A stretch of 26,671 nucleotides of DNA from a virus, in the IMG/VR virus record IMGVR_UViG_3300010883_000362, positions 1 through 26,671 of that record, one strand, 5' to 3'. The notes beneath the pieces were generated by a model that saw only the letters and a list, made by a program, of their open reading frames with translations, did not search any database and had not been told where the DNA came from. The position numbers and the translations under genes were made by a program. Positions 1,254 to 20,964 of this stretch are shown here, piece by piece; the first letter of the stretch is position 1, and every line of letters starts with the position of its first letter.

Positions 1254-1269
1254 ATCAAACCCCTTTGTG

Positions 1270-3171
1270 CTATACAGCGTACCAATCTGCACCATCGGAA
1301 ATGAATGTCACAGCTTCATTCTGATAATTAAGTTCTACGTTTCCAGCACCACCATCAATATTATCAGCACTAGCAATAGTTATTTTGTGACCATCATTAG
1401 TTTTCTTTTTGATTGTCACTGTAGTGCCATTGGCTACGTCGGCATTTAAAGTCACCGTTATTGGTGATCCACCTGTAGTATCTGCAAGAATATATCTGCT
1501 CGATGTAGCGGATATTGCCGTAGCAGAAGTGACCGTGCTAACAGTGTGGTTAATTTGACTAGCCGTAGCTGTAACGCCGTCGAGGATGTTAAGCTCGGCG
1601 GCAGTAGATGTGACATCTGTACCACCAATATCAAGAGTGGTAACGCTGATTTCTCCAGCCACCGTCACCACACCATCGGCAACCGTAATTAAGTCTGTAT
1701 CATCTGTATGGCCAATAGTGGACCCATTAATCACAACATCATCAATATCTAGAGACCCGCCAGAAATCAGGCCGGTGGTGGTAATGGTGCTTGCGCCATT
1801 ATCAATGTTACCAAATCCAGATGTTATGGAACCAGCGTTCAAAGCCCCAACTGTGGTTACATTACTTAGAGTATCCAAAGCGGTCTCAAAATATGTTTCA
1901 AAATCGCTTAGTGCCACTTGGACCATCGCGCCATTATCATTTACCACAACCCTGTCAGCATCAGCCAGCGTAGTTGAGGTGGCAGCAGTTCCACCGTCCA
2001 CGATGTTAAGCTCAGCAGCACTAGAAGTAACCAAAGTGTCGGCCAATTTAAGACCATAAGAGGCTTCATCATGAGAAGCAATATCAACAGTATAGTTACC
2101 ATCTTTGAAAACAACTTCAGCGGCGTCCAACTTAATCATATCAGGGACAGTAGCATTATGAATACCACCACCATCTGGAACTTTCAAGTCGGTGCCCTGA
2201 ACAATCCCCGCCGCACTATAAATAACAGCTTTGCTATTAACAACAGTACCGGCAACAGAACCATCCAAAAGGTTAAGTTCGGCAGTTGTGACGCTGGCCC
2301 CGTCCAGTATCTCTAGCTCTACCTCTGTGATAGCAGCCGAGCCAATGGTAAATCCAGTTGCTGTCACAGTGCTGTTGAAAGTAGCTGCTCCAGCCTCACT
2401 ACCATCAAGAGTTAAAGCGGTGATTACTTCATCTGCATCGTCCACCTTAAAGATAATATCAGCATCAGTTGCCGCAGCGTCTATGGTGATGTTACCAACT
2501 GAGGTTGTAATAGTAACAGCAGCATCACCAGTTGTAATGTCGTCAGCAGCAGTTTCTCCACCACCACTGGCATAAGTCTTAAGTTCAGAAGCAAGTACCA
2601 TCTTCATGGTGCCGCCGTCATTCACCAAAATGCCATCAGCGTCCACGATGGTACAGGATACTCTAGCAGTACCACCATCAATCTTGTTGAGTTCTTCTGG
2701 AGTTGAGGTAATCGCTGTAGTACTAGCAACAGCCAGCACTGGTAAATAACCATTAGCGTTGGGTAGATAAATTGTTTTGCTAGGGGTTGTTGGATCAATA
2801 ATTGTCAAAGTTGTTTCAAAAGCATCTGCCGTGACTCCCTCAAATACAACGGCATTTGCCGCATTCATCGTCACAGTATCAACAGTAGTTGTGGTGCCAG
2901 TGACCGTAAGGTCTCCGGTAACTGTAAGGTTGTCGGCAACAGTTACTTCAGAAGTGGCATGGCCAATTGTGATAGCCTTCCCGCTAGTGTCAGTTCCAAT
3001 CTTGAAAACTGAATTGCTATGGTCCCAAAAAAGCGAAACGTCTTGATCCGCACCGAACCAGACTTTATCATCATCTTGAAATTCTATATCTCCGTTGTCA
3101 TCAGCAAGATAAAATTTATTTGCTGCTGACTGACCTTCAGTAATTCCAAAAGCATGTGGTGAATATGACAT
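1270..3171 (-). CDS. Tail-fibre-like structural protein with AELNILDG repeats, 633 aa
   Basis: This is a long, low-complexity, beta-rich protein of the kind found as fibres in many aquatic phages. It starts at ATG 3171 with AGGAG 9 nt upstream. AEL(N/E)(I/L)LDG-type units recur at scattered places (ITEVELEILDGASVTTAELN, SAAELNIVDGGT, TAAELNILDGVTATAS). A second module of about 35 residues, DADRVVVNDNGAMVQVALS, occurs once here, with a diverged copy nearer the N-terminus (VDADGILVNDGGTMKMVL), and also occurs in the 1526-aa fibre. The C-terminal 80 residues (TVTIKKKTNDGHKITI, then DNIDGG, then FISDGADWYAV) match the C-terminal module of the neighbouring fibre genes. It has its own promoter-like element about 40 nt upstream. 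It probably encodes a trimeric fibre, but the exact role is unknown. Confidence 0.75.
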   Translation of the reverse strand: MSYSPHAFGITEGQSAANKFYLADDNGDIEFQDDDKVWFGADQDVSLFWDHSNSVFKIGTDTSGKAITIGHATSEVTVADNLTVTGDLTVTGTTTTVDTVTMNAANAVVFEGVTADAFETTLTIIDPTTPSKTIYLPNANGYLPVLAVASTTAITSTPEELNKIDGGTARVSCTIVDADGILVNDGGTMKMVLASELKTYASGGGETAADDITTGDAAVTITTSVGNITIDAAATDADIIFKVDDADEVITALTLDGSEAGAATFNSTVTATGFTIGSAAITEVELEILDGASVTTAELNLLDGSVAGTVVNSKAVIYSAAGIVQGTDLKVPDGGGIHNATVPDMIKLDAAEVVFKDGNYTVDIASHDEASYGLKLADTLVTSSAAELNIVDGGTAATSTTLADADRVVVNDNGAMVQVALSDFETYFETALDTLSNVTTVGALNAGSITSGFGNIDNGASTITTTGLISGGSLDIDDVVINGSTIGHTDDTDLITVADGVVTVAGEISVTTLDIGGTDVTSTAAELNILDGVTATASQINHTVSTVTSATAISATSSRYILADTTGGSPITVTLNADVANGTTVTIKKKTNDGHKITIASADNIDGGAGNVELNYQNEAVTFISDGADWYAV

Positions 3172-3211
3172 AGCTATTATCTCCTAGAGTGGATATGGTT
3201 TACTATAATAG

Positions 3212-3218
3212 TATACAC
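3212..3218 (-). promoter_or_regulatory. GTGTATA late-promoter-like element
   Basis: On the minus strand this reads GTGTATACT, 41 nt before the ATG at 3171, in the gap between two fibre genes. The same GTGTATA core appears in four other intergenic gaps on this strand. No good -35 box sits 17 bp upstream; a TTGACT lies only 6 bp before the TATACT. I read it as a -10-type late promoter, by inference. Confidence 0.5.
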
Positions 3219-3219
3219 G

Positions 3220-4344
3220 TTAAGTCAAATACCAGTGACTATTATTAGAAATAGCAGTTACCGACTCATAAAGGTTGTCGATGCCGAAAGAAGACGATCC
3301 GTCTATAGTTTCTGAGCCATAAGGATTAATGGTAACTACATTGCTACCCGCAGTTCTTTTGAATATAAACTCCTTGCCCCCATTGCCCGCTGCTGTTGGT
3401 AGGGCTATCTCTATTGACTCAGATGAAGAGTCTACAAATACTACGCAGTCGCTAATTAGTAGTGTCGCATCTGCGATTATAGACTTGTATGTTCGCCAGC
3501 CTGTCTTTGGGGATGTAGTTTGACTAGTTCCATCAGAAAAATTAATGGCCGGGGCCGTAATAACCCCTCCCGAATCCACATAAGATAAAACAGTGTCGGC
3601 ACTATTTTTCCATTGCTGTAAGTGGGCCGACTGTGACACGGCACCTCTAACTGTAATACCCACCGTTGAAGATAAAGCATTATCGTATAGTAAGCCTCCA
3701 ACCTTATCTACATTAAACAGTACAGAATCTTTATGTGTTACCCAGAAACCATTAGAGTAATTTATTAGCGATGATGTATCGCTAGTAACATACATTCCAA
3801 CCGAGCCGTTATTTCCATAAACGTATCCCTGATCTGGAGATTCCGTCGCTGTTGAAGGAGAATTTTTAAGACCCAACTTCCAAGTGGGCATGAGATTGTC
3901 TTCAAGGTACAAGCCTATTGTTCTATCATTAGCATTATCTATATAGGCATGGATAAGATTACCAGAAGAAGTTCTAGTTATAGTAAGAGTAGAACCAGAA
4001 TTGGAAACATCAAATCGATGATCTCCAGACTCGTCTAGAAAAGAGGATCTACCCGCCGGATATGTCACGAATACCACGGAGGTGCCATCAAGAGAAATTT
4101 TTACGCCTGCGCCACTGCTACCATCTAGAACGGTGTCTCGGGACAAGGTGTTAGTCGATGAAGAATAGGTTCCTATGCCTACTTCCCACCGGGTCATATT
4201 TTCTATGGTATAATATGTCTGATTGCCGTTGCCAATCCCATTGGCAAAAGTTTGAAATCCACCATAAGCCCCGCCCAACGCGATGTCAGACGTGCCAATG
4301 GTGGTGGTTTCTTCTTTTACTCTGTCTGCTACAACTACAGCCAC
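3220..4344 (-). CDS. Tail-fibre-like protein, 374 aa, GTG start
   Basis: The N-terminus (DRVKEETTTIGTSDIALGGA, GFQTFANGIGNGNQTYYTI, then WEVGIGTY) matches a common N-terminal domain of phage fibre and structural proteins of the 'vke.tt..gtg...l.ga..gf..f' type. That domain is usually followed by TLSRDTVL and VFVTYPA, both present here, and it probably attaches the protein to the virion. The C-terminus (IEIALPTAAGNGGKEFIFKR, INPYGSETIDG, HWYLT) is the module shared by this fibre cluster. The start is GTG at 4344, with AGGTGAG about 6 nt upstream; no ATG fits. It begins 16 nt after the stop of the 1526-aa fibre and is probably co-transcribed with it. Confidence 0.75.
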   Translation of the reverse strand: MAVVVADRVKEETTTIGTSDIALGGAYGGFQTFANGIGNGNQTYYTIENMTRWEVGIGTYSSSTNTLSRDTVLDGSSGAGVKISLDGTSVVFVTYPAGRSSFLDESGDHRFDVSNSGSTLTITRTSSGNLIHAYIDNANDRTIGLYLEDNLMPTWKLGLKNSPSTATESPDQGYVYGNNGSVGMYVTSDTSSLINYSNGFWVTHKDSVLFNVDKVGGLLYDNALSSTVGITVRGAVSQSAHLQQWKNSADTVLSYVDSGGVITAPAINFSDGTSQTTSPKTGWRTYKSIIADATLLISDCVVFVDSSSESIEIALPTAAGNGGKEFIFKRTAGSNVVTINPYGSETIDGSSSFGIDNLYESVTAISNNSHWYLT

Positions 4345-4360
4345 GTTCTACTCACCTATA

Positions 4361-7300
4361 CTAAGGATGAACCGATATTCCATGGAGAATGTGATAGCTT
4401 GTACCGTCAGAAACGACAGTCATCACTTGATAAAGATCAGTAAGAATTTTCGAGCTTGCACCATCAATTGTACTCGCTGAATAAATGGTTACATCGTAGT
4501 CGCCATCGCCAATCATCTTGATAGCATATTTAGTTCCGGCTGGAGTGCTGCTGGGCAGCGTGATAGTGCAGGAATTATCACTTGTATTTACAAGAGTTAC
4601 AGACGTATCAGCCGTATGGCTGGTCGTTACCGTTCTCACATTATTCATATATTCTTTAAGATCATCAACTGCGCATTGAACCATTGTCCCATTATCATTA
4701 AGAACAACTCTATCGGCATCTACAACTACAGTCGCTGTGGCAGAATTATCGCCGTCTAAGATATTAAGCTCTTCTGTAGTTATAGTTACTCCGTCAAGTA
4801 TATTAATCTCTCCGGCGGTAGACGTTACGCCGTCAAGTATATTAAGCTCCCCTGTAGTTAGGGTCGCTCCATCAAGAATATTAAGTTCCGCCGTGGTAAC
4901 CGTTGCTCCATCAAGAATCTCTAGCTCAGCCTCCAGAATAGCCGCATCTCCAATGGTGAGACCAGTAGCGTTGAAAATTCCACCTTGATCCAGATGAGCC
5001 ACCGTTGCGCCGTCTGCCCTTTCCCACTCTTGCACCTTGACAATATTATCACTAGACTCTGCTCTAACTACCAGAGTGGCGCTTGGATTAATAGTTGCCT
5101 CACCAATAGACATCCTCTTGAGAGACATGTCACCAGCAATAGTAGTTCCTAGAGCAATCTTATTATTTATTTCTTCAACACCGCCACCAATCAACCTGTT
5201 GGTCCCACCAGCACCCACTGTTAGTTCAATATTAAGAGAACCTGACACGGCCTCTAAAGCGTTATCGCCAATGCCGATAGACCTTTGACTGGAAGCAAAC
5301 TGGCCAGCAGAGTCTCCGATAAAGACTGCGTACTGAGAATTATCTGCATCATACCCAGCGCTAGAGCCAATAAATACTGAGTGCGATGCGTTGACAGTAC
5401 CGTAACCGGTTCTATAGCCAACAAAGTTAGAGTAATCACAGCCAGAAGCATTAAGGCCAGCTTCTGGACCTATAAAACTAGTAAAATCACAGAATACAGC
5501 ATTGTCAGCAGACTTATAGCCGATCATGTTGTTGTAAGTATTATTGACTGCATCAATAGTACTAGTGTTTGTGAATGCGTGATTATAGTTATTAAGAATC
5601 CTTGAAGTAGTGTCATCTAAGTAAGTAGCAAACTCAACAATCTTCATCTTACCAAGTGTTCCACCCGTACTTAGAGCTAAGTATGAAGTATCGCTAGACA
5701 CCGTGGACACATCGGTTGCCTTGCTCATCTCCTCGATGTTTAGATTAAATACTTCGTTCTCTGCCGTAGTATCTATATAGCTACTAAGCCCTACTCCCGG
5801 TATAGTTATAATTCCACTAGTACTACCAATACTTGTACCATCACTAAATCTAACTGAACCTAATAGATTGAGGTCTCCCTTAAGCTCAGCGACTGGCCTA
5901 ATAGGACTGGGAACATAGTAGCTAGGATAAGTACTCATAGCATTTGCATTATGCCGGAGAGTAAATATTGTGTCTACTGTATCATCAGCACCCCTAAAGG
6001 TAAATGCAACACCGCCCTGAACTTGGTCATTGATCGTGTCAACCTTTTCAATGATTGAGCCAATTCCGTCATCAAATTGATCGTTATAATGCCTCAGTAC
6101 TAACTGGTCAACTCCCTGATCGGAAGTCACTATAAATCTAGCTCTTGGAACAGAGAGAAATCTCTCGTCAACAGATGGACCCATAAGCCCATCAAGAATA
6201 ATATTGTCTTCGTTGGCTCCAATTAGAATAGTATAATCAGTATCTGTTCCTCGACCAATTTCCTCCGTGCCGATAATAATACTATTGCTAACATCATTAT
6301 CAGAAGTCTTCAAGGCATTATGCCCAATGATTACATTGTGACTACCGCCGACTAAAGATCGACCAGTATTATTTCCCACAAGGGTATTGCCACTACCAGA
6401 GGTAATTCTATAGCCAGCTAAATACCCAAACGCCGAATTGCCTCGACTATTTGTTAGCTTGTTTAACGCCCTATCTCCAAAGGATGTATTCTCTCTACGT
6501 TCATAACCTAATATATGAGCTTCTCTACTACTAGGAGAAGATCTACCAGCAAATGTATTGCCGCTTGAGTCAGTATAGACCCCCTTTGCGCCAGATACAT
6601 CATAGATATTAAGACTTAAATCAAATCTGTTGCCCGCATCGTCCATAAAATATGGAGCTTGCGTTTGAAGATTGACCCCGCCCCAATACTGCTCAGATCC
6701 ATTCAGGCCGCTAATATAGATCTTTCCAAATTCAGACGTGATAGATGGAGCCTGCTTCTTACCCATCTCTCTTATACTGAGTACGGGTTTACTTCCACTG
6801 CCATCCACATCCCTATCATCAATCGTTAATGTCTCATTGGGGCTAGTTGTATTAATTCCAACCCGGTGATAAGAATCCTTGCTCCAATCAAGAGCGATGA
6901 TTTCTCTTCTAACACCACTCTGAAATACGCTTAAGTCTACAGTGCTTTGATTAAAATTATAGTCAAGCTCAAACCCTTGGACTCCACTATTTTCAGGAGA
7001 AAGAAGTTGCAAAGATGACTTGTTGCCTGAAGCGGAAGTCACTCTCAGTATAGCGTCGCCAGTAGCCTGAATATTAGTAATCGTATTGGGCAGAGGTGCA
7101 TTAAATCCATCTGAGGAATTAGTGATACCCACTAGACCCGGAGAACTCGACCTCATGATAATAAATGCATTCAGTGGGGTCGGTGTGTCATCATAAGCAG
7201 AAATTACAAGCCTGTCTGTCGCTTGATTATCTAGAATTGTATTTTTGGTATCTACATAATCAATTCCAAACCCAACAATATGCTCTCCCTGACTTCCGAC

Positions 7301-8941
7301 TTCTTTCCGCATAGTCCTGCTGACAAGTCTTTGGCCAACAGTAACACCTGATGACAAGGAAGAATAAGTAACCCTATATGCATTGACTTCACCAGACCCA
7401 ACAAAGTTAATATTCGAAACGTTTGCTAGACGACTATCTACACCACGGGGGTCAGGTTTAAACAAATCTTCAGTACCGAAAAAGATTGCATTTTCATCTA
7501 CAGTAGAACCGATCACCAAGTCTGTATCAGAATCAAACTCAGAAACTCCCTTGACAAAAATACCATAACCAGATGGGCCACAAGAAATCATGGACAGATT
7601 TTTTCTGCCAATAATTCTATCTGTTTTTAAATGGCTTCCAGAAGCAATATGGATACTAATATTGCTATTCCATGCAGATCTAGAATATGGACTATCCATC
7701 TCTAAGCAGGTAAGAGTCGCATCTGTAGAAGTAAAAATAAACTCATAGTCTCTTCTATAATCAATACCACTAGACTGTAGAACAAATCCTCCTCCCTCTA
7801 TCTGTTGATCCTGTAGCCAACCACATGGTGCGCCTCCTCCAGACACACAAATGTCTCCACTAGAGGCTAGATAAAGAGTTCTACACTCATAAATACAGCT
7901 ATTAATCTCTGTATAATTAAAAGTAGTGACATCAGCCGTTCCGCTAATAGTAATATTTCCAAAGTGAGCGTCCCACCTTAAGTCTGGAGTGCCCAAGGAA
8001 AACTCGGTATTCCAGAGTGGAACTATATTACCACGAGAAGTAACTAGACCTTCATCTCCAGACGGAAGATTGGTGCCAAGGCCTATGAGGCCGCCACTAG
8101 ATAAGAATATAACATCAGATTTAACATAGTCGCCTCCACCCGGCGTCTGCTCTGGGCCACCGCGACGTATAGAAAAATTACCTGAATCAGGATATTCTAA
8201 TACATCAGATACGAAGAGATTACGCCAACTCTTCTTCTCATGTCCAAGGTCATATATTCCAGACTCTGAAGGAGATACGGTTCCAGCAACTTGCAGCGTA
8301 CCATAGTTGTGTAGAGTGTCTGTACCTATGGCTAACACGAGATTATACAGGTCACCTCTCATGAGAGGAACTAAACCCGACCCCAAGGGGTTGTCACATA
8401 CCCCGCTTTCATCTATATTGTGACTGCCCAAGTAGAAGTTATAACTAGAATTTGTGCCTATATAATGTCCAGCAGCATGCCCGATAGCAATGTTATAATT
8501 GCCTTCTTTATTCGATCTGAGAGCATTGCTACCAATAGCAACATTGCCTGAACCATATATATTATTGGTAAGAGCCTGAAACCCTAGGGCGGAATTATTA
8601 TCCCCATAAAGGTTACAACTCATGGCATACGAACCTATGGCGGTATTAGAGAATCCGTCATAGTTGTTTCCCAGAGCAAAGTAGCCAAACGCAGAATTAT
8701 CTGTGCTACTATAACCGGCCAGATATAGATTCTTTATGGTGTCAATGCCAGCCTTAGTTGTTCTAACGTCAGGCGTGGAAAAGTTGAGAGAGTTTAGATT
8801 GTTGTCATCTGTGAATAGATGTACAGAGTCTATAATGTCAAGCAGGTTATGCCTGACATCATTAGGAGAAACTGCCCCAGTAGAATTATTGGGTATTTCT
8901 CGCTTTATATTATCTATGAGTTGTAACTTATCTACAATCAT
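4361..8941 (-). CDS. Giant tail fibre with YadA-like head repeats, 1526 aa
   Basis: This is the largest protein in the window and the likely main receptor-binding or long fibre. Residues 8-42 (a short helical segment with SPNDVRHNLLDIIDS) look like a phage-fibre N-terminal attachment element. Three blocks of YadA/Hep-Hag-type head repeats follow, with units such as NSAFGYFAL, NTAIGSYAM, NVAIGSNAL and YNIAIGHAAG. They lie at roughly residues 80-170, 815-905 and 1135-1235. These motifs form trimeric left-handed beta rolls in bacterial adhesins. Near residues 1345-1397 there is a tandem 13-residue ILDG repeat, then a DADRVVLNDNGTMVQ module. The C-terminal module (CTITLPSSTPAGTKYAIKM, STIDGAS, VVSDGTSYHIL) is shared with neighbours. 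The ATG at 8941 has only a weak GGGGT upstream. It may be translationally coupled to the gene before it. Confidence 0.85.
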   Translation of the reverse strand: MIVDKLQLIDNIKREIPNNSTGAVSPNDVRHNLLDIIDSVHLFTDDNNLNSLNFSTPDVRTTKAGIDTIKNLYLAGYSSTDNSAFGYFALGNNYDGFSNTAIGSYAMSCNLYGDNNSALGFQALTNNIYGSGNVAIGSNALRSNKEGNYNIAIGHAAGHYIGTNSSYNFYLGSHNIDESGVCDNPLGSGLVPLMRGDLYNLVLAIGTDTLHNYGTLQVAGTVSPSESGIYDLGHEKKSWRNLFVSDVLEYPDSGNFSIRRGGPEQTPGGGDYVKSDVIFLSSGGLIGLGTNLPSGDEGLVTSRGNIVPLWNTEFSLGTPDLRWDAHFGNITISGTADVTTFNYTEINSCIYECRTLYLASSGDICVSGGGAPCGWLQDQQIEGGGFVLQSSGIDYRRDYEFIFTSTDATLTCLEMDSPYSRSAWNSNISIHIASGSHLKTDRIIGRKNLSMISCGPSGYGIFVKGVSEFDSDTDLVIGSTVDENAIFFGTEDLFKPDPRGVDSRLANVSNINFVGSGEVNAYRVTYSSLSSGVTVGQRLVSRTMRKEVGSQGEHIVGFGIDYVDTKNTILDNQATDRLVISAYDDTPTPLNAFIIMRSSSPGLVGITNSSDGFNAPLPNTITNIQATGDAILRVTSASGNKSSLQLLSPENSGVQGFELDYNFNQSTVDLSVFQSGVRREIIALDWSKDSYHRVGINTTSPNETLTIDDRDVDGSGSKPVLSIREMGKKQAPSITSEFGKIYISGLNGSEQYWGGVNLQTQAPYFMDDAGNRFDLSLNIYDVSGAKGVYTDSSGNTFAGRSSPSSREAHILGYERRENTSFGDRALNKLTNSRGNSAFGYLAGYRITSGSGNTLVGNNTGRSLVGGSHNVIIGHNALKTSDNDVSNSIIIGTEEIGRGTDTDYTILIGANEDNIILDGLMGPSVDERFLSVPRARFIVTSDQGVDQLVLRHYNDQFDDGIGSIIEKVDTINDQVQGGVAFTFRGADDTVDTIFTLRHNANAMSTYPSYYVPSPIRPVAELKGDLNLLGSVRFSDGTSIGSTSGIITIPGVGLSSYIDTTAENEVFNLNIEEMSKATDVSTVSSDTSYLALSTGGTLGKMKIVEFATYLDDTTSRILNNYNHAFTNTSTIDAVNNTYNNMIGYKSADNAVFCDFTSFIGPEAGLNASGCDYSNFVGYRTGYGTVNASHSVFIGSSAGYDADNSQYAVFIGDSAGQFASSQRSIGIGDNALEAVSGSLNIELTVGAGGTNRLIGGGVEEINNKIALGTTIAGDMSLKRMSIGEATINPSATLVVRAESSDNIVKVQEWERADGATVAHLDQGGIFNATGLTIGDAAILEAELEILDGATVTTAELNILDGATLTTGELNILDGVTSTAGEINILDGVTITTEELNILDGDNSATATVVVDADRVVLNDNGTMVQCAVDDLKEYMNNVRTVTTSHTADTSVTLVNTSDNSCTITLPSSTPAGTKYAIKMIGDGDYDVTIYSASTIDGASSKILTDLYQVMTVVSDGTSYHILHGISVHP
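4751..4906 (-). repeat. 39-bp in-frame tandem repeat (4 copies plus a partial)
   Basis: Four consecutive 39-bp units begin at 4751, 4790, 4829 and 4868, with a degenerate partial unit from 4907. Each encodes a 13-residue unit of the form ILDGxTxTTxELN. The units differ at many third positions, so the array is old or under selection for the protein rather than a recent slippage product. It lies within the 1526-aa fibre gene, close to its C-terminal domain. Confidence 0.85.
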
Positions 8942-9542: not shown

Positions 9543-10550
9543 CTAGAACGATCCGAGGATCACTCGTCTGTTATCTAGAACACCAAAGCCAAGCTCGGCC
9601 CATCCATAGAAACCGGCTCGTTGCTGACGGTGCAACGTAGGATCTTCAAAGACTTCCAATTCCTGCTTGACAGGCATGACAAAGCTATCGTTGCCGGACT
9701 GGTCAAGGCCCACAACAAGCTCAAGGTCAGAAGTTTCAACCGCGCCGCTAAGCTCGGTGGTGAAGAAATTCTGATACTCTTGACCTTCGCCAAGCTCATC
9801 AAGGTCGTGCAAGTTACACCCAAAGATTCTAGTGATAGGCGCGCCGCCCTCGCTAGCAGTGTAAATCTCACGACGTGACACTTCATCAAGCTGATCAATA
9901 CCCCAGTTACGCACATCTTCAAGTGCTTCAGGACTGACATACATGTCTGTCAAACGACCACGACCCACGGAGGCACTATTGCCACCAGAGTTGCGCCGCA
10001 TAACAGTTTGCATCAAAGAGACAAGTCTCTTCGAAAACATACCAGCAGTAGCGTCAGCATCGTAAACCAAAACGTTACGATCAACGCCAGCAGCCAAAAC
10101 TGTATGCCAACCATCGTCATTGACCTTCTTAACAAAGCCAGCTTCCATGACCTGCATAGCACGCCCAACGATATCCCAGCGGGCCTCTCGGGCATAGCGT
10201 AGGAGATAATCGATTGAACTTGTGATGCTATAAGTAGGAATCATCACGAAGTCGCTTTCAACGGCTCGTTCTGGGATCCTACCGTGTCCGGGATTGGTGT
10301 AAGCAATATGCTCACCCTCTGTACCCGGAGAAATCAGGTCCATGGGAAATTCTGTGGTACTTCCAGCTTCAACCGCGATAGTTTCGAAGATGTCGCCAAG
10401 AATATTACCAACCAAAACACCCTTACGCAGAGGCAGTTCTAGAGCTTTGGCGAATTCACGCTGAGCCGGAAGGGCCACGTCAATATCACTATCTCCAGAG
10501 GTGCGAAGTAGTGCAAGAAACTCTTCACTTGGTCTATTAGTAGTAGCCAT
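9543..10550 (-). CDS. Major capsid protein (HK97-like fold), 335 aa
   Basis: This is the probable major capsid protein. It has the right size and position: after portal, protease/scaffold and decoration-type genes, and directly before a strong terminator. The composition is soluble with an acidic N-terminal region. The segment around residues 72-88 (ISPGTEGEHIAYTNPGHGRI) could be the extended loop region. Residues 245-335 (CNLHDLDELGEGQEY to GWAELGFGVLDNRRVIL) look like the C-terminal A-domain and final strand of phage capsid proteins, which often end in 'G...lGf.v...r...'. AAGGAG precedes the ATG at 10550 by about 8 nt. The family assignment is by resemblance and context, not alignment. Confidence 0.8.
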   Translation of the reverse strand: MATTNRPSEEFLALLRTSGDSDIDVALPAQREFAKALELPLRKGVLVGNILGDIFETIAVEAGSTTEFPMDLISPGTEGEHIAYTNPGHGRIPERAVESDFVMIPTYSITSSIDYLLRYAREARWDIVGRAMQVMEAGFVKKVNDDGWHTVLAAGVDRNVLVYDADATAGMFSKRLVSLMQTVMRRNSGGNSASVGRGRLTDMYVSPEALEDVRNWGIDQLDEVSRREIYTASEGGAPITRIFGCNLHDLDELGEGQEYQNFFTTELSGAVETSDLELVVGLDQSGNDSFVMPVKQELEVFEDPTLHRQQRAGFYGWAELGFGVLDNRRVILGSF

Positions 10551-12624: not shown

Positions 12625-14724
12625 TCAATACCCCAAATATTCAAGATATAAGCCAACAGCACGTCTCCTATACGGTTCGATGTTCATACTTTGGGTGTTT
12701 ACGCCTTGCTCATCAAGCATCGCCCTGAAAGAGGGCGGGGCCTGAAGACCGTTAGAGAGAATCTCATAAACAATATCGGGAGTAACTGGATCAAGTAATT
12801 CCAAATTAGAAAAAACATCTAGCTTTAATTTTTCTAGATCTACTACGTCAGATTTGGTAAGCTGTCTGAGATTTTTCTTCTCCTTGATTTTCAAGAAGGC
12901 CGCATTAACAATCTCTGATACTTCTTGAAAAGCTTCATCGGTCCAAACAATCAGCTTAGCTACACCGGGTTTTGTTTTCGGCGTATCTACTCGCTTCTTT
13001 CTTGGTTCTGTATCATTAGAAAACTTGGGCCTTCCCCCGTCAGGATTCGGACTATTCTTTTTCTGTGGTGGACCGCCGGATGGACCCGCCGGTTGGGGCT
13101 TGGGAAATTTTCTATCTATCAACTCTTTTGAGTCCAAAGTAGTTTCAACGCCCACATCTTCAGGCGTTACCACGCCCTGTTGCAAGGCGATCTTTTGCAG
13201 GTCATGCTCACGCTGAGCATTATGAAAGGGGCTAGCTTTCTCAGGAGAATCTTCTCTAGCCCGACTTTTAACTTCGCGCTTCAACCTAATTTTCTCAACA
13301 CTCGGAATTTCGTTAAATCGTTCTAGTAAAGTCTCGTGACTAATAATATCTCTATCGGCAAGTTGTAGCAACAGGTTTTTCTCAGAAGCTTCATCAGACA
13401 AATTCATTTGGTCAAAATGCACATGTGCTGGTTTTCTGAAACCCATGGCTCTTCTTACAAGTTCAATTTCCTTTTGCCAGAACTTAATCAATAATCCTCT
13501 GCCATATTGCAGCCGTTCTACTAAAGTCTTAAGAGAGATAAAATTATTAGTGAAACCTCCACTTTGTCCAGCGACACCAGTTAATGTTGGCGGAACACCA
13601 AGGCCAGCATAAATACTATTCAGAACCGCCTGATATTTTTCAGATCCCAAAAACTTGTACACCTCACTATGGGACTCTTCAAAGCTCAGCTCTGGCCCCC
13701 AAACAAGCTCCATTGTTCCACCGCCCACATTACTAGTGAGTATATCACGCAGCTTATTGATAGCGGCTTTATTAGGGAGGATCTTATGGTCCAGACTACC
13801 CAAGGTCCAAAGTCTAATATTTGAAATGGCTCCATCCAATGCAGATAGATCAGCAAGACGCATTTTTTCAAGCATATTAATATCGTCTAGAATTGCATAG
13901 ATCATTGGATTAGACCACTGAGACCAGTCATCTTTCTTATAATGAACTACTGATAGCCTATCCGCTTCTAGTGGAATAACCTTGTCTCCTCGCACAATAG
14001 CTCTTTTTGCCTTGGGGGGCAAAGTGTCCAAAATATTAGCTGGAATATCCCCCTTCTTAAAATTGTCTTGTATAGTTTTTGTGGTGATGGTAAAGTTTCT
14101 CTTAGCCATAAATAACGATAGCTGCCCATCTTTCATATCAATCGTAAGGGGATTAAAAAAGTTGTATCTCCAAGGGATAACACCCGGCTCTAGCGGAGAA
14201 ATTTCTACCTTGATATCATTTCCAAGCGTTTTCATATACCTACTCAACTCGGGAGTAATCTTAGCATTGCTTCGGTATACAATAACATTGCCAGCCCTAT
14301 AAAGATTATTCAGAAATCTTTCCGACCTTTCACCTCCATCAACTTTCTTAAACCATTGGCGATAAAACTTTTCTACACTCTTGTCCTCGTGAACAAGATT
14401 TATTCCTTGACTTCCAAAGTCCCCCATTAGATCAATGACATTCCTAATAATGCCCACTTTATCATAAGCATCCATGCACATCTTAATAATGCGTTTTTGT
14501 TGACTTGGCACCTGCTCGTCTGATCGGAAGGCATAATAATCAGAATGAGTAAAGCCGGGTCTAACACTGCGGCGATCTTCTACATTTTTAAAGTTACTAT
14601 AATGACTACCATGAGACTTATTAACCCCAGCGTATGCATCGATACTTTCTGAAAACTCCGACATAGCATCGATCTTACTTTGCCCATCATCAGACCATGT
14701 AATGAACCCTTTGTCTTCACTCAT
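12625..14724 (-). CDS. Portal protein, 699 aa
   Basis: This is the probable portal, the dodecameric DNA channel at one capsid vertex. It lies between terL and the prohead protease. The N-terminal 60 residues are polar. The core includes DAYDKVGIIRNVIDLMGDF (a helix typical of portal clip and stem regions), RLSVVHYKKDDWSQWSNPM, LEKMRLADLSALDGAISNIR and YAGLGVPPTLTG (residues about 385). The ...iyaglGvPptl... element is characteristic of portal proteins. A Pro/Lys-rich linker follows (about 560-605), and then a helical C-terminus. It starts at ATG 14724 with GGTGA 6 nt upstream. A GTGTATA element precedes it. At 699 aa it is larger than T4 gp20 (524 aa). Confidence 0.85.
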   Translation of the reverse strand: MSEDKGFITWSDDGQSKIDAMSEFSESIDAYAGVNKSHGSHYSNFKNVEDRRSVRPGFTHSDYYAFRSDEQVPSQQKRIIKMCMDAYDKVGIIRNVIDLMGDFGSQGINLVHEDKSVEKFYRQWFKKVDGGERSERFLNNLYRAGNVIVYRSNAKITPELSRYMKTLGNDIKVEISPLEPGVIPWRYNFFNPLTIDMKDGQLSLFMAKRNFTITTKTIQDNFKKGDIPANILDTLPPKAKRAIVRGDKVIPLEADRLSVVHYKKDDWSQWSNPMIYAILDDINMLEKMRLADLSALDGAISNIRLWTLGSLDHKILPNKAAINKLRDILTSNVGGGTMELVWGPELSFEESHSEVYKFLGSEKYQAVLNSIYAGLGVPPTLTGVAGQSGGFTNNFISLKTLVERLQYGRGLLIKFWQKEIELVRRAMGFRKPAHVHFDQMNLSDEASEKNLLLQLADRDIISHETLLERFNEIPSVEKIRLKREVKSRAREDSPEKASPFHNAQREHDLQKIALQQGVVTPEDVGVETTLDSKELIDRKFPKPQPAGPSGGPPQKKNSPNPDGGRPKFSNDTEPRKKRVDTPKTKPGVAKLIVWTDEAFQEVSEIVNAAFLKIKEKKNLRQLTKSDVVDLEKLKLDVFSNLELLDPVTPDIVYEILSNGLQAPPSFRAMLDEQGVNTQSMNIEPYRRRAVGLYLEYLGY

Positions 14725-14784: not shown

Positions 14785-16776
14785 CTAGTATGCCTCTTGC
14801 GCTCCGTCTGTAAACCAGTTGGGACCAGAGAAAAACTGCTCGCCTTCTTTTCGCTTGTATTCACCTCCATGACCAGCAAACCCCCCATAAAATTCGTATT
14901 CTTCCGGCGTCGGAGTTCTTTGCAAAATCCTTGCTGCCATGTTTGCCATCAGCAATGCAGAATATCTATCCTTGCGGAGTTTATTTTTCTTACCCGTACC
15001 AACAATAACTTCCGGGGTATCCCATCGATCACGACCACTTGGGGTTTGACTCATCTCAATCATAGAAAGCTCATCTTTTAACTCCTCAATATCCATCACG
15101 CATTCTTCTAAAGTGTCAAACATCCTACTCTTAATAGAGTCTTCAGAGTGTGAAAGGCCAAGGCTTACTGAGTCAAAGAATGGAAACAAGAGAACCTTAT
15201 CTTCAAAATCTTTTCTCATACCATGGTTAGCTTCAGAAAGCCACTCGTATCTAGCAAACTGACACATTTCTAGAATATGTAAACCCTTCTCGTCATCTGT
15301 GTCGGCTTCTTTATCTTCATCTATGACAGGCCAAATAGAAATTTCACCCTCTTGAAGTTTATCTAGATCGTGCAAGGACTCCATCACTGCAATGCCACCG
15401 CCTTGGGCGTCCATGGCGATATGTTCACATGGGAATAATTTCATTAGATCTCTGATCTTTCTGGCGCAGTATGAATAAAAATCTGTGTCAGCAGAAAAAC
15501 CCTTCTTAACCTTTGCCCTATGTTCAGATCTAGTTGTAGTCCAACAGTGAACTATCCTCCTGTGGTCTGGATGAATTTCAAGAACTACAATACTAAAATT
15601 ATCTACTTCAGACGCTGGGTCCACTCCAAACATGTACCTTTTCTTATGATCACCTATTAGGGTGGCCTCAAAATGTATATCGTTGCCCCCGAAGTCTTTA
15701 GTGGGATTTTCAAGATTTACTACGCAAAGTTCAATCAAAGCTCTCTTAAAAAATCCTTGAGAGTCTCTAGTAAAGCAAGCTCCATATTCCATTTGATAAA
15801 TTCCAGTATGCATAGTAGCTTTAGATCTAGCTACTTGAGCATCGTCCATAAAACCATCCGGTAAAAGCTCGTAAGGAATTCTTATCACAGAGTACTGTCT
15901 CCAATCAAAGCTCGGTGGAGGATCGTCATTTCCGAATATTTCCTTGAGTCTATTTTTCTGACCCCTACTCTGTATTATAGCCTTCCACCTCTTCCAATAC
16001 TCAGCATAATGATTAAAATCGTAATATGCGGTGCCGGAAATAATAATCTGGTTTGGCATGTTCTGTCTAGATTCTTCGGCGCTATATATTTCCAAGTCTA
16101 CACCAAGCTCTTTCGCCTTCTTTTTACTTGCTGCTCTTATGACGTTGTCTATAGGATCTGCACTAACAGCAGCAAAACCAGCGACAACAGTCTCAAAAAT
16201 ATTTCTTGGAATTGCTGCAAACTCATCACTAATAATATCATTAGCTCGTTGTCCACGAATTTTTTGACCATCACCCAGTGGAAGGCAGGTTATAGTGCTT
16301 TCATTAATTCGCATTGTACATCGATCAACATCTCGACGGGGTCCACTACTGCTACTACATATATCGCGTAAAATAGGAGAATTTCTCCAGATAGTTTCCA
16401 TATATTCAAACAGTATTTTTGACTGTCGAAATGCAGCACCGACGATAACAATTTTACGTTCTGGCAGTAGCAATGCTCGTATTAAGGCATATAATGACAA
16501 CATGAAAGATTTACCAAAACCACGGCTAGCAATTAAGATAGGGAACTTTCGGTTCCACAACTCGTGTAGGATCAAGGCTTGAGATGGCAGCAGCTGCACG
16601 TTAAGTATTTGCTTACACAGGAATGAAAAATATTCTGGCTGGGTCATCAGCCATGTAAGCCTAAGGTGAAAATCTTCTTCTTCAGTTTGCAGTATGGATG
16701 TAGGACTAAAAATTTCCTTTTCAGAAATATCTAATCCCAGCCATGCCTCATTTATTTTCTTAAGGTTTTTTGTCAC
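14785..16776 (-). CDS. terL: Terminase large subunit, 663 aa, GTG start
   Basis: This is the DNA-packaging motor ATPase and nuclease. The Walker A motif is SRGFGKS (residues 84-90), and Walker B with the catalytic glutamate is DIISDEFA (180-187). The RNase H-like nuclease domain has MFGVDPASEVDNFSIVV (Asp 386) and HIAMDAQGGG (Asp 456). These are the paired acidic sites of phage large terminases of the T4 gp17 type. The start is GTG at 16776 with GGAGAAA about 7 nt upstream. The frame overlaps the preceding zincin gene by 17 nt, so coupling is likely. The C-terminal region is Gly/Lys-rich and ends in EQFFSGPNWFTDG. It forms a headful-packaging pair with a small terminase, perhaps the protein encoded at 23160-23945. 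Confidence 0.95.
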   Translation of the reverse strand: MTKNLKKINEAWLGLDISEKEIFSPTSILQTEEEDFHLRLTWLMTQPEYFSFLCKQILNVQLLPSQALILHELWNRKFPILIASRGFGKSFMLSLYALIRALLLPERKIVIVGAAFRQSKILFEYMETIWRNSPILRDICSSSSGPRRDVDRCTMRINESTITCLPLGDGQKIRGQRANDIISDEFAAIPRNIFETVVAGFAAVSADPIDNVIRAASKKKAKELGVDLEIYSAEESRQNMPNQIIISGTAYYDFNHYAEYWKRWKAIIQSRGQKNRLKEIFGNDDPPPSFDWRQYSVIRIPYELLPDGFMDDAQVARSKATMHTGIYQMEYGACFTRDSQGFFKRALIELCVVNLENPTKDFGGNDIHFEATLIGDHKKRYMFGVDPASEVDNFSIVVLEIHPDHRRIVHCWTTTRSEHRAKVKKGFSADTDFYSYCARKIRDLMKLFPCEHIAMDAQGGGIAVMESLHDLDKLQEGEISIWPVIDEDKEADTDDEKGLHILEMCQFARYEWLSEANHGMRKDFEDKVLLFPFFDSVSLGLSHSEDSIKSRMFDTLEECVMDIEELKDELSMIEMSQTPSGRDRWDTPEVIVGTGKKNKLRKDRYSALLMANMAARILQRTPTPEEYEFYGGFAGHGGEYKRKEGEQFFSGPNWFTDGAQEAY

Positions 16777-17035
16777 TATTATTTCTCCAGCCTAGCTTCC
16801 AGAGCACGCGGGAAACGTCCATCGCCGTTTGTTCAACCCACTCCTCGTCCTGATGCCAGTCAGCAGCATGTAGCAGTTCGTGTAAGATAACATCTAATTT
16901 CTCTAAGCCTTCAAGATCTTTAGATATGCGTATCTGCTTCCCACGGGTGTCAGGGGAGTCACACTTGCCCAGATAATCCCTGCGCATCTTCTTAAAGACT
17001 AATCTCCAATATTTTCCACCAACTTTTATTCTCAT
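16760..17035 (-). CDS. Small HExxH zinc-metallopeptidase-like protein, 91 aa
   Basis: This small protein has a clear zincin motif, VILHELLHAADWHQDEEW, with H52, E53 and H56, and acidic residues downstream (E64, E65, E68) that could supply the third ligand. The N-terminal half (KVGGKYWRLVFKKM, RGKQIRISKD) is beta-like, as in minimal SprT/WLM-type or phage-borne metallopeptidases. It begins 2 nt after the acyl-CoA dehydrogenase stop and overlaps the start of terL. The ribosome-binding site is weak, so it is probably translated by coupling. The substrate is unknown, and the motif alone does not prove protease activity. Confidence 0.7.
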   Translation of the reverse strand: MRIKVGGKYWRLVFKKMRRDYLGKCDSPDTRGKQIRISKDLEGLEKLDVILHELLHAADWHQDEEWVEQTAMDVSRVLWKLGWRNNSDKKP

Positions 17036-17037
17036 GG

Positions 17038-18891
17038 CTAATCATCGTATCTCATAAGTATTGAATCGAGACCGTTGTCTTCATACTGACTGGCCAATAT
17101 TTCTCCAAGGTTAACGCTTTTTCTAATCTGTCTATCCGTGGGGTGGTTGCCAGTAATTTTATTTTTTAGATTCTCGCAGGATACATCCGCTATAAGTGAT
17201 ATCGTAGTATCGGCTTTAGCAAAAGCATAACAAACAGTAACCATCATTGTAAGTAGGTTTTGTATTTTCCTAGAGAGTATAGACATTCGACATTGCCTGT
17301 CGGCCAACTTCAGTTGATACTTACGCATAAGGCTGCTTATCTCCCAAGCCGAACTTTGCAGATTTTTAATGGCGAAATTAGCATGGCAGACTAGATTCTT
17401 ATTGAACCCGATTGGGCGTATTCCACTCTTTATAGTTGTAGCCTCTGTAAAAATCCACTTAGCATATGGAACAAAAACTCTATAATTTTTAATCATGTCT
17501 TTGGGAGAGAGGCTCTTTTTCCCCAATTGGGACATGAGGTTTCCTACTGGCTCGAAATAGGTTTTCCCGTGATCTTTTACCAGACTTTTAAAGAATGCCA
17601 TATTGAGCATGTCGCCCTCTCCTTCGTAGATTAGGGGGGCCAGAAGGTCGTAAATATTATCTCCAATAATATGACCCCCTAGGAAAGATCTCCCGCCGTG
17701 AGTCTTCATGCACAAGTCAATAGCAGCTTCCTTTTGACACTCAGACCCAAAAGTTTTTGCTATGATGCACTCTAGCTCTCCTCGGTAGCCCTTATCTATG
17801 AGGCCGGAACACCAAGCTACCAAGGCGTCAGATGAGAGTATATAGCCAGCCAATCTGGCAATTCTGTCTTGAACAAGCTCTCTATTTTTGATAGGCTGTC
17901 CATACGTTGACCTATAGCTAGCCCAAGGAATCATTGATTCCAGCATAACCTTCATACATCCCGAAGCGTTGGCGCACAGGGACACCCTGCCTAGATTCAA
18001 CCCGTGATAGGCAACCGTCAGTCCGTTTCCACTCTCTAGGCTGATTAGGTTTTCTTTAGGCACTTTAAAGTCCTTAAACACCAAGGCGTTATTATACAAC
18101 TTACTAAGTGCGTATATATCATAGTTTACAATTTCAAAATGGTCAGTGTCTTCTTCTGGCAGCTCTACGATAATAACTTGAGGCTCGCCGTCTACAAGGC
18201 ATACGACAGACACAAGCCTTCCATAAATTGCATTGGTGATGAATAGCTTCTTTCCATTTATAAGGTAGTGATCACCATCCAAGCAGGCGGTAGTTTTTAG
18301 TGCGGTGAGGTCTGAACCAGCGCATGGTTCAGTTAAAGCAAAGGCAGAAAGAAATTCTCCGTTGGCCAGCTTGGGAAGATATTTCTCCTTTTGATATTCG
18401 CTACCAAATGTTCTAATGGGGTCGACGGACCCTATGCATCCATGTATAGAAGACAGGCCAGCTACACTCGCCTCGACGGAGGCCATCTTTGTAAGATAGT
18501 AGGAAAACTCGGAAAAAGAAACCGCAGGCTTTTCTGGCAAGGGAACTAGTTGTCCAAAATACCCAGCATCAGATAGATCTTTGAGAAGGTCTTCGCTTAG
18601 CTTTCCCTTATCATCATAAAGATTGCCCTTCTGCTTGAAAGACGAGGCAATACTCACACAGTTTTTTAGCATGGTAGAGTTTGGTCTATGGAAGTCGAAC
18701 TCAAAAAAGTTCTTAGTTGGAAACTCCCTACCCCACACAGCTTTAAAGGCGGGGCTGTTGTTGGTCTGGTATTTGTCTTCGAAAAGATGATCCACCTGAT
18801 CGTCTGCTGTATCCACCTTGCCTATACTTTTATACTCCTCTGCGCTTTTGCCACCTAGTTTCATAGCAGTCTCTGCGAATGATCTATTCAT
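17038..18891 (-). CDS. Acyl-CoA dehydrogenase family flavoprotein, 617 aa
   Basis: This is a complete acyl-CoA dehydrogenase (ACAD) family protein. These FAD enzymes normally oxidise acyl-CoA to 2-enoyl-CoA and pass electrons to ETF. The family signature AFALTEPCAGSDL is at residues 183-195. A second family segment, YRSTYGQPIKNRELVQDRIA, is at 326-345. THGGRSFLGGH is at 397-407, and LIYEGEGDMLNMAFF is at 420-434, with E423 at the position of the usual catalytic base. A C-terminal extension of about 170 residues follows. This gives a VLCAD/ACAD9-like length rather than about 380 aa. The start overlaps the preceding nuclease gene as ATGA, with GGAAGGA upstream, so the gene is embedded in the phage operon. 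Its role is unknown: lipid metabolism, or a non-catalytic use, is possible. Confidence 0.88.
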   Translation of the reverse strand: MNRSFAETAMKLGGKSAEEYKSIGKVDTADDQVDHLFEDKYQTNNSPAFKAVWGREFPTKNFFEFDFHRPNSTMLKNCVSIASSFKQKGNLYDDKGKLSEDLLKDLSDAGYFGQLVPLPEKPAVSFSEFSYYLTKMASVEASVAGLSSIHGCIGSVDPIRTFGSEYQKEKYLPKLANGEFLSAFALTEPCAGSDLTALKTTACLDGDHYLINGKKLFITNAIYGRLVSVVCLVDGEPQVIIVELPEEDTDHFEIVNYDIYALSKLYNNALVFKDFKVPKENLISLESGNGLTVAYHGLNLGRVSLCANASGCMKVMLESMIPWASYRSTYGQPIKNRELVQDRIARLAGYILSSDALVAWCSGLIDKGYRGELECIIAKTFGSECQKEAAIDLCMKTHGGRSFLGGHIIGDNIYDLLAPLIYEGEGDMLNMAFFKSLVKDHGKTYFEPVGNLMSQLGKKSLSPKDMIKNYRVFVPYAKWIFTEATTIKSGIRPIGFNKNLVCHANFAIKNLQSSAWEISSLMRKYQLKLADRQCRMSILSRKIQNLLTMMVTVCYAFAKADTTISLIADVSCENLKNKITGNHPTDRQIRKSVNLGEILASQYEDNGLDSILMRYDD

Positions 18892-19391
18892 TTTTTCCTT
18901 CCTATAGTATACATTTCGTTAACCCTCTTAAAGATGCTGCTAACTGTTAGAAATGCATTGTGTTTATTCCCACAGAATAAAACATGAACTTCTTCATGTA
19001 GCTGAAATTCCATTAGGCACTTTAGCATATACTTGCCAGTTATCTTGATGGAAGATTTGTTTTTCTCTGGTATTCTAGTATTCTCTGGAAAGTCTATTAA
19101 GTCATCTAAAGAAAACTCCAGAACAATAAACCGATGAGAAAAATCCTTCATGCGATCTATCTCGTTTAAGAATGCATGCTTTTTCTGCCCTAGGTTTATG
19201 GCTAGCTCTTCTATGCATCCCTTACGCTCTACACAACATTTGTCCTCCATGCCCAATATAGCGTAATCCCCCGTGTCTAGCTTCTCAGTCACCATTCCAG
19301 CGCATTTATTATACTTGCTAAAATAATACCCCTCCTGCTCTCGGGTATCTTTAATGACAAAGTATTCGGGTGCTTGCTTATAATTATCCAT
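18888..19391 (-). CDS. ERCC4-type (XPF-like) nuclease, 167 aa
   Basis: This is a single-domain ERCC4/XPF-family nuclease. The catalytic pattern is visible: VIKDTRE (D15, R17, E18), LDTGDYAI (GDY at 41-43) and CVERKGCIEEL (E55, R56, K57). These match the D...RE, GDY and (V/I)ERK...D/E core of ERCC4 domains, which cut branched or flapped DNA. No HhH domain is present, so it is a minimal version. Its ATG at 19391 overlaps the HNH gene by 8 nt, and its stop overlaps the acyl-CoA dehydrogenase start. A role in resolving replication or recombination intermediates before packaging, or in DNA repair, is inferred. Confidence 0.82.
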   Translation of the reverse strand: MDNYKQAPEYFVIKDTREQEGYYFSKYNKCAGMVTEKLDTGDYAILGMEDKCCVERKGCIEELAINLGQKKHAFLNEIDRMKDFSHRFIVLEFSLDDLIDFPENTRIPEKNKSSIKITGKYMLKCLMEFQLHEEVHVLFCGNKHNAFLTVSSIFKRVNEMYTIGRKK

Positions 19392-19659
19392 TTTTATCTC
19401 TCACTATCTGGTGAAATAGAACCTCATAGTGTGATTCTGATCCACTGATTGATTCATGGCATTTTTTACACAGGGTAATCCCGTTAGTAATATCAAATCT
19501 TAGTATCGCTGCTTCTGACCATTTCTTTATATGGTGAGCTTGTATCTTAAATCTGGACTTACACCCCGGCATCTGGCACCGACGCCCATCTCTTCGATAG
19601 ACTTTCTTCCGCCACTCTTTATAGGCGGGATCTTCGTAATTTCGTCGGGCTACTGACAC
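19384..19659 (-). CDS. HNH endonuclease, 91 aa, GTG start
   Basis: This is a compact HNH nuclease. Two CxxC-like zinc pairs (C28 and C33; C64 and C67) flank the HNH core: IQAHHIKKWSE (H42, H43), DITNGITLC (N59) and KKCHESI (H68). The start is GTG at 19659 with GAAGG about 5 nt upstream; no ATG fits. It overlaps the preceding small gene by 10 nt and the ERCC4 nuclease by 8 nt. HNH proteins near phage terminase genes can act in headful packaging. Free-standing homing HNH genes are the alternative, but the tight operon overlaps favour a fixed phage function. Confidence 0.85.
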   Translation of the reverse strand: MSVARRNYEDPAYKEWRKKVYRRDGRRCQMPGCKSRFKIQAHHIKKWSEAAILRFDITNGITLCKKCHESISGSESHYEVLFHQIVRDKNG

Positions 19660-19898
19660 TTTGCCTTCATGATCTTTACTTTCCGTCTTATCTGCCTACA
19701 CAGTAGTCTAGTCTTCACAGAGTCATCTTGGGCGAGTAGAAGTTTGACTAGGTTGTATACAGCCTTAAAGCATGCGTCATCGGGATTACGAGCCTCCACA
19801 AAAACAATGGGAAACATTGCGTTATATTTTCCCAGTGTGTAGGGCTTGAGGCTAACAATCACCTCGGTCATGTCAAGGTATACTTTGTAGATTGGCAT
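19650..19898 (-). CDS. Hypothetical protein, 82 aa
   Basis: No family is recognised. The N-terminal half has beta-like strands (PIYKVYLDMTEVIVSL, PIVFVEARNPDDA) and the C-terminal half is helical and basic (CFKAVYNLVKLLLA, RQIRRKVKIMKAK), so it might bind nucleic acid. It overlaps the end of the GDP-mannose dehydratase gene by 26 nt and the HNH start by 10 nt. The ribosome-binding site is weak. An alternative ATG at 19871, immediately after the dehydratase stop, would give 73 aa by coupling. The position suggests that it is real. Confidence 0.6.
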   Translation of the reverse strand: MPIYKVYLDMTEVIVSLKPYTLGKYNAMFPIVFVEARNPDDACFKAVYNLVKLLLAQDDSVKTRLLCRQIRRKVKIMKAKCQ

Positions 19899-20964
19899 TC
19901 AGGTCGTGTTCCATCATAACTTGTACTAGTTCTTCTAGTCCATGCGTTGCAGTCCAGCCAAGTTTTTCTCTAGCCTTGGAGGCATCTCCTCGAAGATAAT
20001 CCACTTCTGCTGGTCTATAAAAATCTGGATCAATTACTACTAAGTCGCTCCAGTCAGTAATACCGATATAGCTAAATGCATAATTCAGAAAATCCTTTAT
20101 ACTATGCGTATCACCAGTACATATGACATAGTCATCCGGCTGATCTTGTTGTAACATCAAATACATAGCCTCTACGTAATCTCCGGCATATCCCCAATCT
20201 CGGCAAGCGTCTAAATTTCCCAACCGAAGCTTTGGGTATTCGAATTCATCGTCATCTTCACGCCTATTTTTTATGTAAATTTCATCTACACCAAAGGAAA
20301 GAATGCTGTCGTGGTGAGAAATATGAAACCGATCTAGCCATTTGCAATAACCACCTATCCACTTGGTAATCTTTCTGGTAACAAAGCTTTCCCCACGCCG
20401 TTCTCCTTCGTGGTTGAATAGAATACCAGAACTAGCATGCAAGCCATAGGCTTCTCTAAACAGGCGGGTCATATAGTGAGCGGCAACCTTTGCTATAGCA
20501 TACGGAGATTGTGGTAAAAATTTAGTATCCTCATCTTGATATTTTTCACCATTCTTATTGATACTATGCGAGCCTCCAAACATCTCACTTGAAGACGCCT
20601 GATAAAATCTACACTGCAACCCAAGATCTACAATAGCCTGTAAGATATTTAAGCATCCTTTTCCAGTAATATCCCAAGTTAAACCGGGTTGCTTAAAGGA
20701 GACTCCCACATGCGACTGTGCAGCTAGGTTATAGACTTCATCTACATTCTCGTTATCCTTAAGAATTCCAATGATACTGAAAACATCTGTGATGTCTCCT
20801 TGAACAGCCTTGAAGTTAGCAATTCCTGATAGATGCTTGATTCTCTCTGTATTATCTATACTGCATCTTCTCGCCACTCCGACGACTTCATACCCCTTCT
20901 CTAGAAGTAGATCCGCTAGATGGCTCCCGTCCTGCCCGGTTATGCCAAATATAATTGCTTTCAT
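19873..20964 (-). CDS. gmd: GDP-mannose 4,6-dehydratase, 363 aa
   Basis: This enzyme converts GDP-mannose to GDP-4-keto-6-deoxymannose, the precursor of GDP-fucose and related deoxysugars. It is a short-chain dehydrogenase of the extended type, with NADP-binding GITGQDGSHL (residues 8-17), SSSEMFGG (124-131), SPYAIAKVAAHY (153-164; Y155 and K159 catalytic), LFNHEGERRGESFVTRKI (182-199) and LGNLDACRDWGYAGDYVEAM. The length is close to bacterial Gmd (about 370 aa). Compared with the E. coli enzyme as I recall it, there is an insertion of about 30 residues before LRLGNLDA. The start overlaps the upstream membrane gene as ATGA. It may modify host surface glycans or phage DNA or virion sugars. Confidence 0.95.
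   Translation of the reverse strand: MKAIIFGITGQDGSHLADLLLEKGYEVVGVARRCSIDNTERIKHLSGIANFKAVQGDITDVFSIIGILKDNENVDEVYNLAAQSHVGVSFKQPGLTWDITGKGCLNILQAIVDLGLQCRFYQASSSEMFGGSHSINKNGEKYQDEDTKFLPQSPYAIAKVAAHYMTRLFREAYGLHASSGILFNHEGERRGESFVTRKITKWIGGYCKWLDRFHISHHDSILSFGVDEIYIKNRREDDDEFEYPKLRLGNLDACRDWGYAGDYVEAMYLMLQQDQPDDYVICTGDTHSIKDFLNYAFSYIGITDWSDLVVIDPDFYRPAEVDYLRGDASKAREKLGWTATHGLEELVQVMMEHDLNANLQSIP

Follow-up and report, generated by a model that had tools for sequence, protein, structure and literature searches.

The window analysed here is an IMG/VR virus record of 26,671 bp. At positions 17038-18891, its minus strand encodes a 617-residue acyl-CoA dehydrogenase (ACAD), while the plus strand across the same interval is full of stop codons. 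The surrounding minus-strand block also holds a recognised terminase large subunit (TerL), a portal protein and a virion structural protein. The main features are:

9543-10550, minus strand: probable major capsid protein, assigned from its place and from its conservation among relatives (71-93% identity), with no library match
12625-14724, minus strand: portal protein (phrog_2739)
14785-16776, minus strand: terminase large subunit (PF03237, phrog_2)
16760-17035, minus strand: small zincin-like protein, assigned from its HELLH motif (weak match to phrog_3768)
17038-18891, minus strand: VLCAD-type ACAD of 617 aa, with a phage-specific N-terminal tail (residues 1-45), ACAD domains (about 60-440) and a VLCAD-type C-terminal domain (about 440-600)
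18888-19391, minus strand: ERCC4-type nuclease (Pfam PF02732, phrog_3490)
19384-19659, minus strand: HNH endonuclease (PF01844), upstream of ERCC4 in a place conserved in relatives G001 and G002
19873-20964, minus strand: GDP-mannose 4,6-dehydratase (GMD; PF16363), in the same operon, conserved in G001 and G002

The junctions around the ACAD are tight. The ERCC4 stop and the ACAD start overlap by 4 nt (ATGA) with a GGAAGG ribosome site in front, 2 nt separate the ACAD stop from the zincin ATG, and zincin and terL overlap by 17 nt. These measurements agree with the initial annotation, which described, with no strand given, an ACAD overlapping ERCC4 and lying 2 nt from the zincin-terL pair. In the window, G001 and G002 alike, the packaging operon includes the GDP-mannose 4,6-dehydratase, at 55-76% identity. 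Positions 222-8941 of the minus strand encode very long tail- or fibre-like proteins of up to 1526 aa with 'AELNILDG'-type repeats, and a tRNA search of the window returned none.

Sequence and structural comparisons identify the protein as a complete member of the ACAD superfamily. Pfam places all three ACAD domains above cut-off (N-terminal PF02771 at residues 92-179, middle PF02770 at 183-253 and C-terminal PF00441 at 288-429), and 92 ACADs of solved structure match the sequence, the best with E=1.7e-43. The window protein carries the motifs T187-EPCAGSD, F217-ITN, R327-STYGQ, T397-HGG and Y422-E423-G, with E423 at the catalytic-Glu position of MCAD and VLCAD. In an alignment of full-length phage copies, TEPxAGSD, FITN, RxTYGQ, HGG and YEG (E423) are kept in 8/8. 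The FAD and substrate motifs and the catalytic glutamate of the superfamily are all present, and FAD binding is predicted. The claim of a full-length enzyme with a FAD/substrate signature, a THGG motif and a candidate catalytic glutamate is borne out in every copy, and the loss of FAD-binding residues, which would have undermined it, is not seen.

The AlphaFold model of the window ACAD (pLDDT 80, pTM 0.85) was built from an alignment of the eight phage sequences with nine cellular ACADs; the phage rows alone gave pLDDT 50.7. The model has the predicted three-domain ACAD fold, with a helical N-terminal domain, a beta middle domain and a helical C-terminal domain, and matches many ACADs at Z 27-32. 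Its top match is human VLCAD (VIA Z 32.4, rmsd 2.9, 494 residues; Foldseek E 7e-22). ACAD9, B. anthracis 3owa and Thermus 2z1q trail it by only 1-2.5 Z units, which leaves several candidates for the nearest member. Since the VLCAD alignment spans model residues 44-582, it takes in the modelled extra C-terminal domain of about 150-180 aa beyond the ACAD core that marks VLCAD, ACAD9 and the bacterial FadE proteins of about 600 aa. BLAST agrees, with a Paenibacillus FadE at 1e-41 (30% identity over 481 columns, reaching residue 574); this plasmid-borne FadE sits in an operon with 3HCDH/ECH, thiolase, ACAD and acyl-CoA ligase genes.

By tree and fold, the phage ACAD belongs with the VLCAD-type ACADs. 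It has in common with human VLCAD (2uxw), B. anthracis 3owa and Paenibacillus FadE the domain order, the C-terminal domain, the catalytic glutamate and the FAD motifs, yet it is only about 22-24% identical to VLCAD. Its first 45 or so residues form a strongly conserved tail that is absent from the aligned cellular rows, and its catalytic Glu-Gly is followed by glutamate (YEGEGD), a position occupied by threonine (EGT) in most of the nearest cellular rows. Judged from this VLCAD-type architecture, the enzyme probably prefers long-chain acyl-CoA.

With DNA enzymes beside the ACAD and DNA-associated AidB in the family, the initial annotation had suggested that the fold, if inactive as an ACAD, may have been repurposed. 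One such reading is an AidB-like role in DNA handling or packaging together with ERCC4, HNH and terL. This neighbourhood is real in the window and L001, and partly in L007, but affinity to AidB is rejected: E. coli AidB matches the window protein with E=0.013, against 1e-41 for the VLCAD-type FadE, and in the tree it is remote, on a long branch outside the group that contains the phage clade. The invariant catalytic and FAD motifs also speak against such a role, and the locations of the gene in related phages mostly refute it, leaving it very improbable.

These locations come from 2.9 million scanned viral contigs, among which nine IMG/VR contigs carry ACAD relatives at 64-93% identity; a profile rescan of the viral contigs added 0 members. 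L001 (88% identity) shows the same ERCC4-ACAD-zincin-terL order, and its synteny with the window extends over 18 genes. L007, a third contig that is cut inside the ACAD, repeats the ACAD-zincin-terL part and has ACAD-zincin-terL-portal in common with the window. With two further contigs showing this arrangement, an assembly join, a concern raised at the outset, is rejected, and so is a chance reading frame. The proposed search for phage ACADs in this same position succeeds for L001 and L007, but the other carriers (G002-G006 and G008) have theirs elsewhere, away from ERCC4 and terL.

Among these, the 161-kb G002 has in common with the window the block sigma-g21-g20-g19-g18-GMD-g15-HNH-ERCC4-terL-portal-prot-dec-capsid, with TerL 67% and capsid 71% identical. 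There, ERCC4 overlaps terL directly with no ACAD between them; the ACAD-zincin pair is found on the opposite strand at 143.6-145.7 kb, ahead of IMP dehydrogenase (IMPDH), about 127 kb from terL and among metabolic genes. Zincin travels with the ACAD, adjoining it in both the window and G002. The packaging context is secondary, and adjacency to DNA enzymes reflects a lineage-specific relocation, with no conserved link. On the simplest reading, an ACAD-zincin cassette would have entered between ERCC4 and terL in the lineage to which the window, L001 and L007 belong. A move in the opposite direction is possible but less parsimonious, because IMPDH is next to the ACAD or close by in G002, G003, G004 and G008.

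The gene also behaves as a maintained part of phage genomes. Three pairs of phage copies give dN/dS values of 0.061, 0.063 and 0.081, so the protein is under strong purifying selection. Eight full-length phage ACADs from different contigs form one clade (support 100/100), and the stem leading to it is long, at about 2 changes per site. Among the cellular sequences in the tree, a Chloroflexota ACAD is the closest (99/99); long-branch warnings apply to FadE and AidB. Like an auxiliary metabolic gene (AMG), this is a metabolic gene on a viral genome that is kept across relatives, with nine contigs carrying it and with TerL and portal in the same operon.

A donor or host was sought by sampling three phyla (Pseudomonadota, Bacteroidota and Chloroflexota) and by one pattern scan. 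No ACAD relative was found at E<=1e-60 in 398 Pseudomonadota and 395 Bacteroidota genomes (793 together), the closest ACAD across 301 Chloroflexota genomes was a single match at E 3e-51, and a genome contig scan gave local matches only, at 26-43%. Isolate phages are rejected as true relatives, their GenBank matches being distant (<=39% local identity). Most of these matches come from 'Acinetobacter phage MD-2021a' contigs or from MaAM05, with bacterial-looking surroundings. Numerous bacterial fad/ACAD genes occur on the former (GenBank CAKLQH02/CAKLQF02), and FliM, PomA, MurJ and BioD lie next to the ACAD of 'Microcystis phage MaAM05' (MW495066, L075); the two appear to be bacterial DNA entered under phage names. 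The window's TerL finds its nearest isolate match, Bacillus phage Stills, at only about 26% identity, so the isolate collection compared offers no cultured model.

Since ACADs abound in bacteria and several 'phage' ACADs in GenBank appear to be bacterial contamination, one might see in the window gene a recently captured host gene with no phage function, a chimeric contig or host DNA. Against this stand the identical junctions in separate contigs, the single clade of eight full-length copies, the strong purifying selection and the lack of any cellular relative at E<=1e-60 in the 793 genomes or below 3e-51 in the Chloroflexota set. Such an origin is the least credible of the explanations considered.

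Related phages place the ACAD alongside further steps of beta-oxidation. G002 and the 85-kb relative G003 carry separate genes for enoyl-CoA hydratase (ECH) and 3-hydroxyacyl-CoA dehydrogenase (3HCDH). For both proteins the best NCBIfam model is FadB, ECH aligning to its residues 1-296 and 3HCDH to residues 301-668; they are 43% and 52% identical, respectively, to the corresponding parts of G006 FadB, in which the two are fused. G004 and G008 also encode ECH. In G006, a more distant, contractile-tailed phage, the ACAD (639-aa frame) is directly followed by a 652-aa FadB and a 392-aa FadA-type thiolase, and NCBIfam scores FadB at 642 bits and FadA at 477 bits, both below the equivalog cut-offs. 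ECH, 3HCDH and thiolase all have their catalytic residues intact, the G006 thiolase reading LLCGSS, NEAF, GGAIALGH and CVGMG. As read from these genes, ACAD-FadB-FadA of G006 would be enough for the whole beta-oxidation spiral.

The carriers are recognisable phages: G002 has TerL, DNA polymerase and RNR, G003 has DNA polymerase, RNR and gene content in common with G002, and G006 has baseplate wedge and baseplate V proteins. G006 also has a strong Pfam match to the actin-like protein Volactin (L050:6366-7382). The window, a 26.7-kb fragment, carries the ACAD only, and ECH and 3HCDH are known only from its relatives. Among the relatives' records, thiolase was found in G006 alone. A search of 12 records, which may be fragments, revealed neither an acyl-CoA synthetase nor an ETF family member, so these functions would be the host's.

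Other genes accompany this set. The ACAD regions of G002 and G003 also hold IMPDH, a class I aldolase and a glutamine-fructose-6-P transaminase-like protein, and one phage region encodes class I fructose-bisphosphate aldolase (L002:14769-15743), a GlmS-like SIS/GATase protein (L002:19238-21034) and IMP dehydrogenase (L002:12118-13161). A tmRNA lies directly beside the 3HCDH gene in G002 (L029:1651-1993, minus strand, Rfam 135 bits, tag AEKQYALAA) and G003 (L032:8204-8541, plus strand, 133 bits, tag AEKQFALAA). Both genomes have tRNA-Ile(tat) and one tRNA-Asp(gtc), and G002 also has tRNA-Arg(tct). Two phage records encode DUF1501 proteins with strong Pfam scores (L028:5504-6742 and L004:15653-16900), and trypsin-like peptidases are also present.

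A lysine 6-transaminase-like enzyme (TIGR03251) occurs in G002 and G003 at 475 and 472 bits, below the family cut-off, together with an aldehyde dehydrogenase (L028:12852-16340 in G002, L032:12829-16326 in G003); G002 has an arginine dihydrolase-like protein as well. These genes suggest that the viruses may catabolise amino acids. Because such neighbours lie in the same region, the ACAD could be active on an amino-acid-derived acyl-CoA, for example from lysine via aminoadipate and glutaryl-CoA, with ECH and 3HCDH finishing crotonyl-CoA to acetoacetyl-CoA. However, the window ACAD reaches 121.7 bits against a cut-off of 470 for the glutaryl-CoA dehydrogenase NCBIfam equivalog, a single bacterial model that says little by itself. 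The extra C-terminal domain is of VLCAD type, G006 pairs its ACAD with FadB- and FadA-type partners, and the transaminase scores under its own cut-off. A non-fatty substrate is accordingly unlikely, though less so than a role in packaging.

The reading preferred here is that the ACAD is an auxiliary metabolic gene of uncultured large tailed phages, of VLCAD/FadE type, that would drive beta-oxidation of host lipids; we hold this to be likely. Using FAD and the catalytic E423, the enzyme would turn the host's acyl-CoA (probably long-chain) into trans-2-enoyl-CoA by oxidation and hand the electrons to the host ETF and ETF-quinone oxidoreductase. Viral enzymes in related phages, or those of the host, would then carry out the FadB and FadA reactions. 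Host membrane or storage lipids pushed through this route could supply reducing power and acetyl-CoA for replication, and insertion at ERCC4/terL probably also ties ACAD expression to the late operon. Because the ACAD is intact and selectively maintained and some relatives encode two, three or four steps, these phages probably make the host burn its own lipids. The initial suggestion that a phage may act on beta-oxidation or acyl-CoA pools is plausible, and the predicted ECH, 3HCDH and even thiolase of relatives strengthen it. The broader proposal, that uncultured tailed phages carry a beta-oxidation module of their own (a VLCAD-type ACAD with a two-gene FadB, and in one phage ACAD-FadB-FadA) and run lipid catabolism with viral enzymes, has about an even chance of being right.

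Several viral fatty-acid genes are already on record. Hurwitz et al. 2013 reported fadB and fadL gene families in the Pacific Ocean Virome (PMC4053976), an ACAD on a soil viral contig has been called an AMG (PMC8390657), and a partial ACAD occurs in pmoC phages (PMC7674155). The giant virus PkV RF01 has an ACAD, and according to a review neither ECH nor thiolase had been found in giant viruses (PMC9270025). The view that ACADs fall outside the usual list of phage AMGs is broadly correct, although examples of fatty-acid AMGs and of an ACAD AMG had been described (PMC4053976, PMC8390657). The ACADs of PMC8390657, PMC7674155 and PkV RF01 resemble the present one in their suggested fatty-acid role, yet they are isolated or partial genes or belong to eukaryotic viruses, unlike the linked phage set described here. 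Bacillus phage PBC_MG99, with a 3-hydroxyacyl-CoA dehydrogenase annotated in 2026 (PMC13030324), and a viral ECH in cold-seep mussels (PMC11078923) each provide one beta-oxidation enzyme, with no linked ACAD in the portions of these reports available.

A search of open-licence papers found no linked multi-step phage beta-oxidation set. Fatty-acid AMGs are known; what is new relative to those papers is a viral set that covers several steps, is syntenic and includes an ACAD of VLCAD type. The linked genes give concrete proteins to test, and FadB encoded as two separate proteins offers a natural experiment on substrate channelling. Within the literature searched, the complete ACAD-FadB-FadA in one phage would be the clearest case of a virus with the means to run a whole lipid-degradation cycle. 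The Pacific Ocean Virome genes are likewise candidate marine viral fatty-acid oxidation AMGs, and fadB is the gene found split or fused here; that study, in its available part, deals with virome gene families and mentions no ACAD, whereas the present genes occur several together on syntenic viral contigs. That marine viruses oxidise fatty acids was earlier proposed from virome families and single genes, and can now be considered on long syntenic viral contigs with intact active sites and purifying selection.
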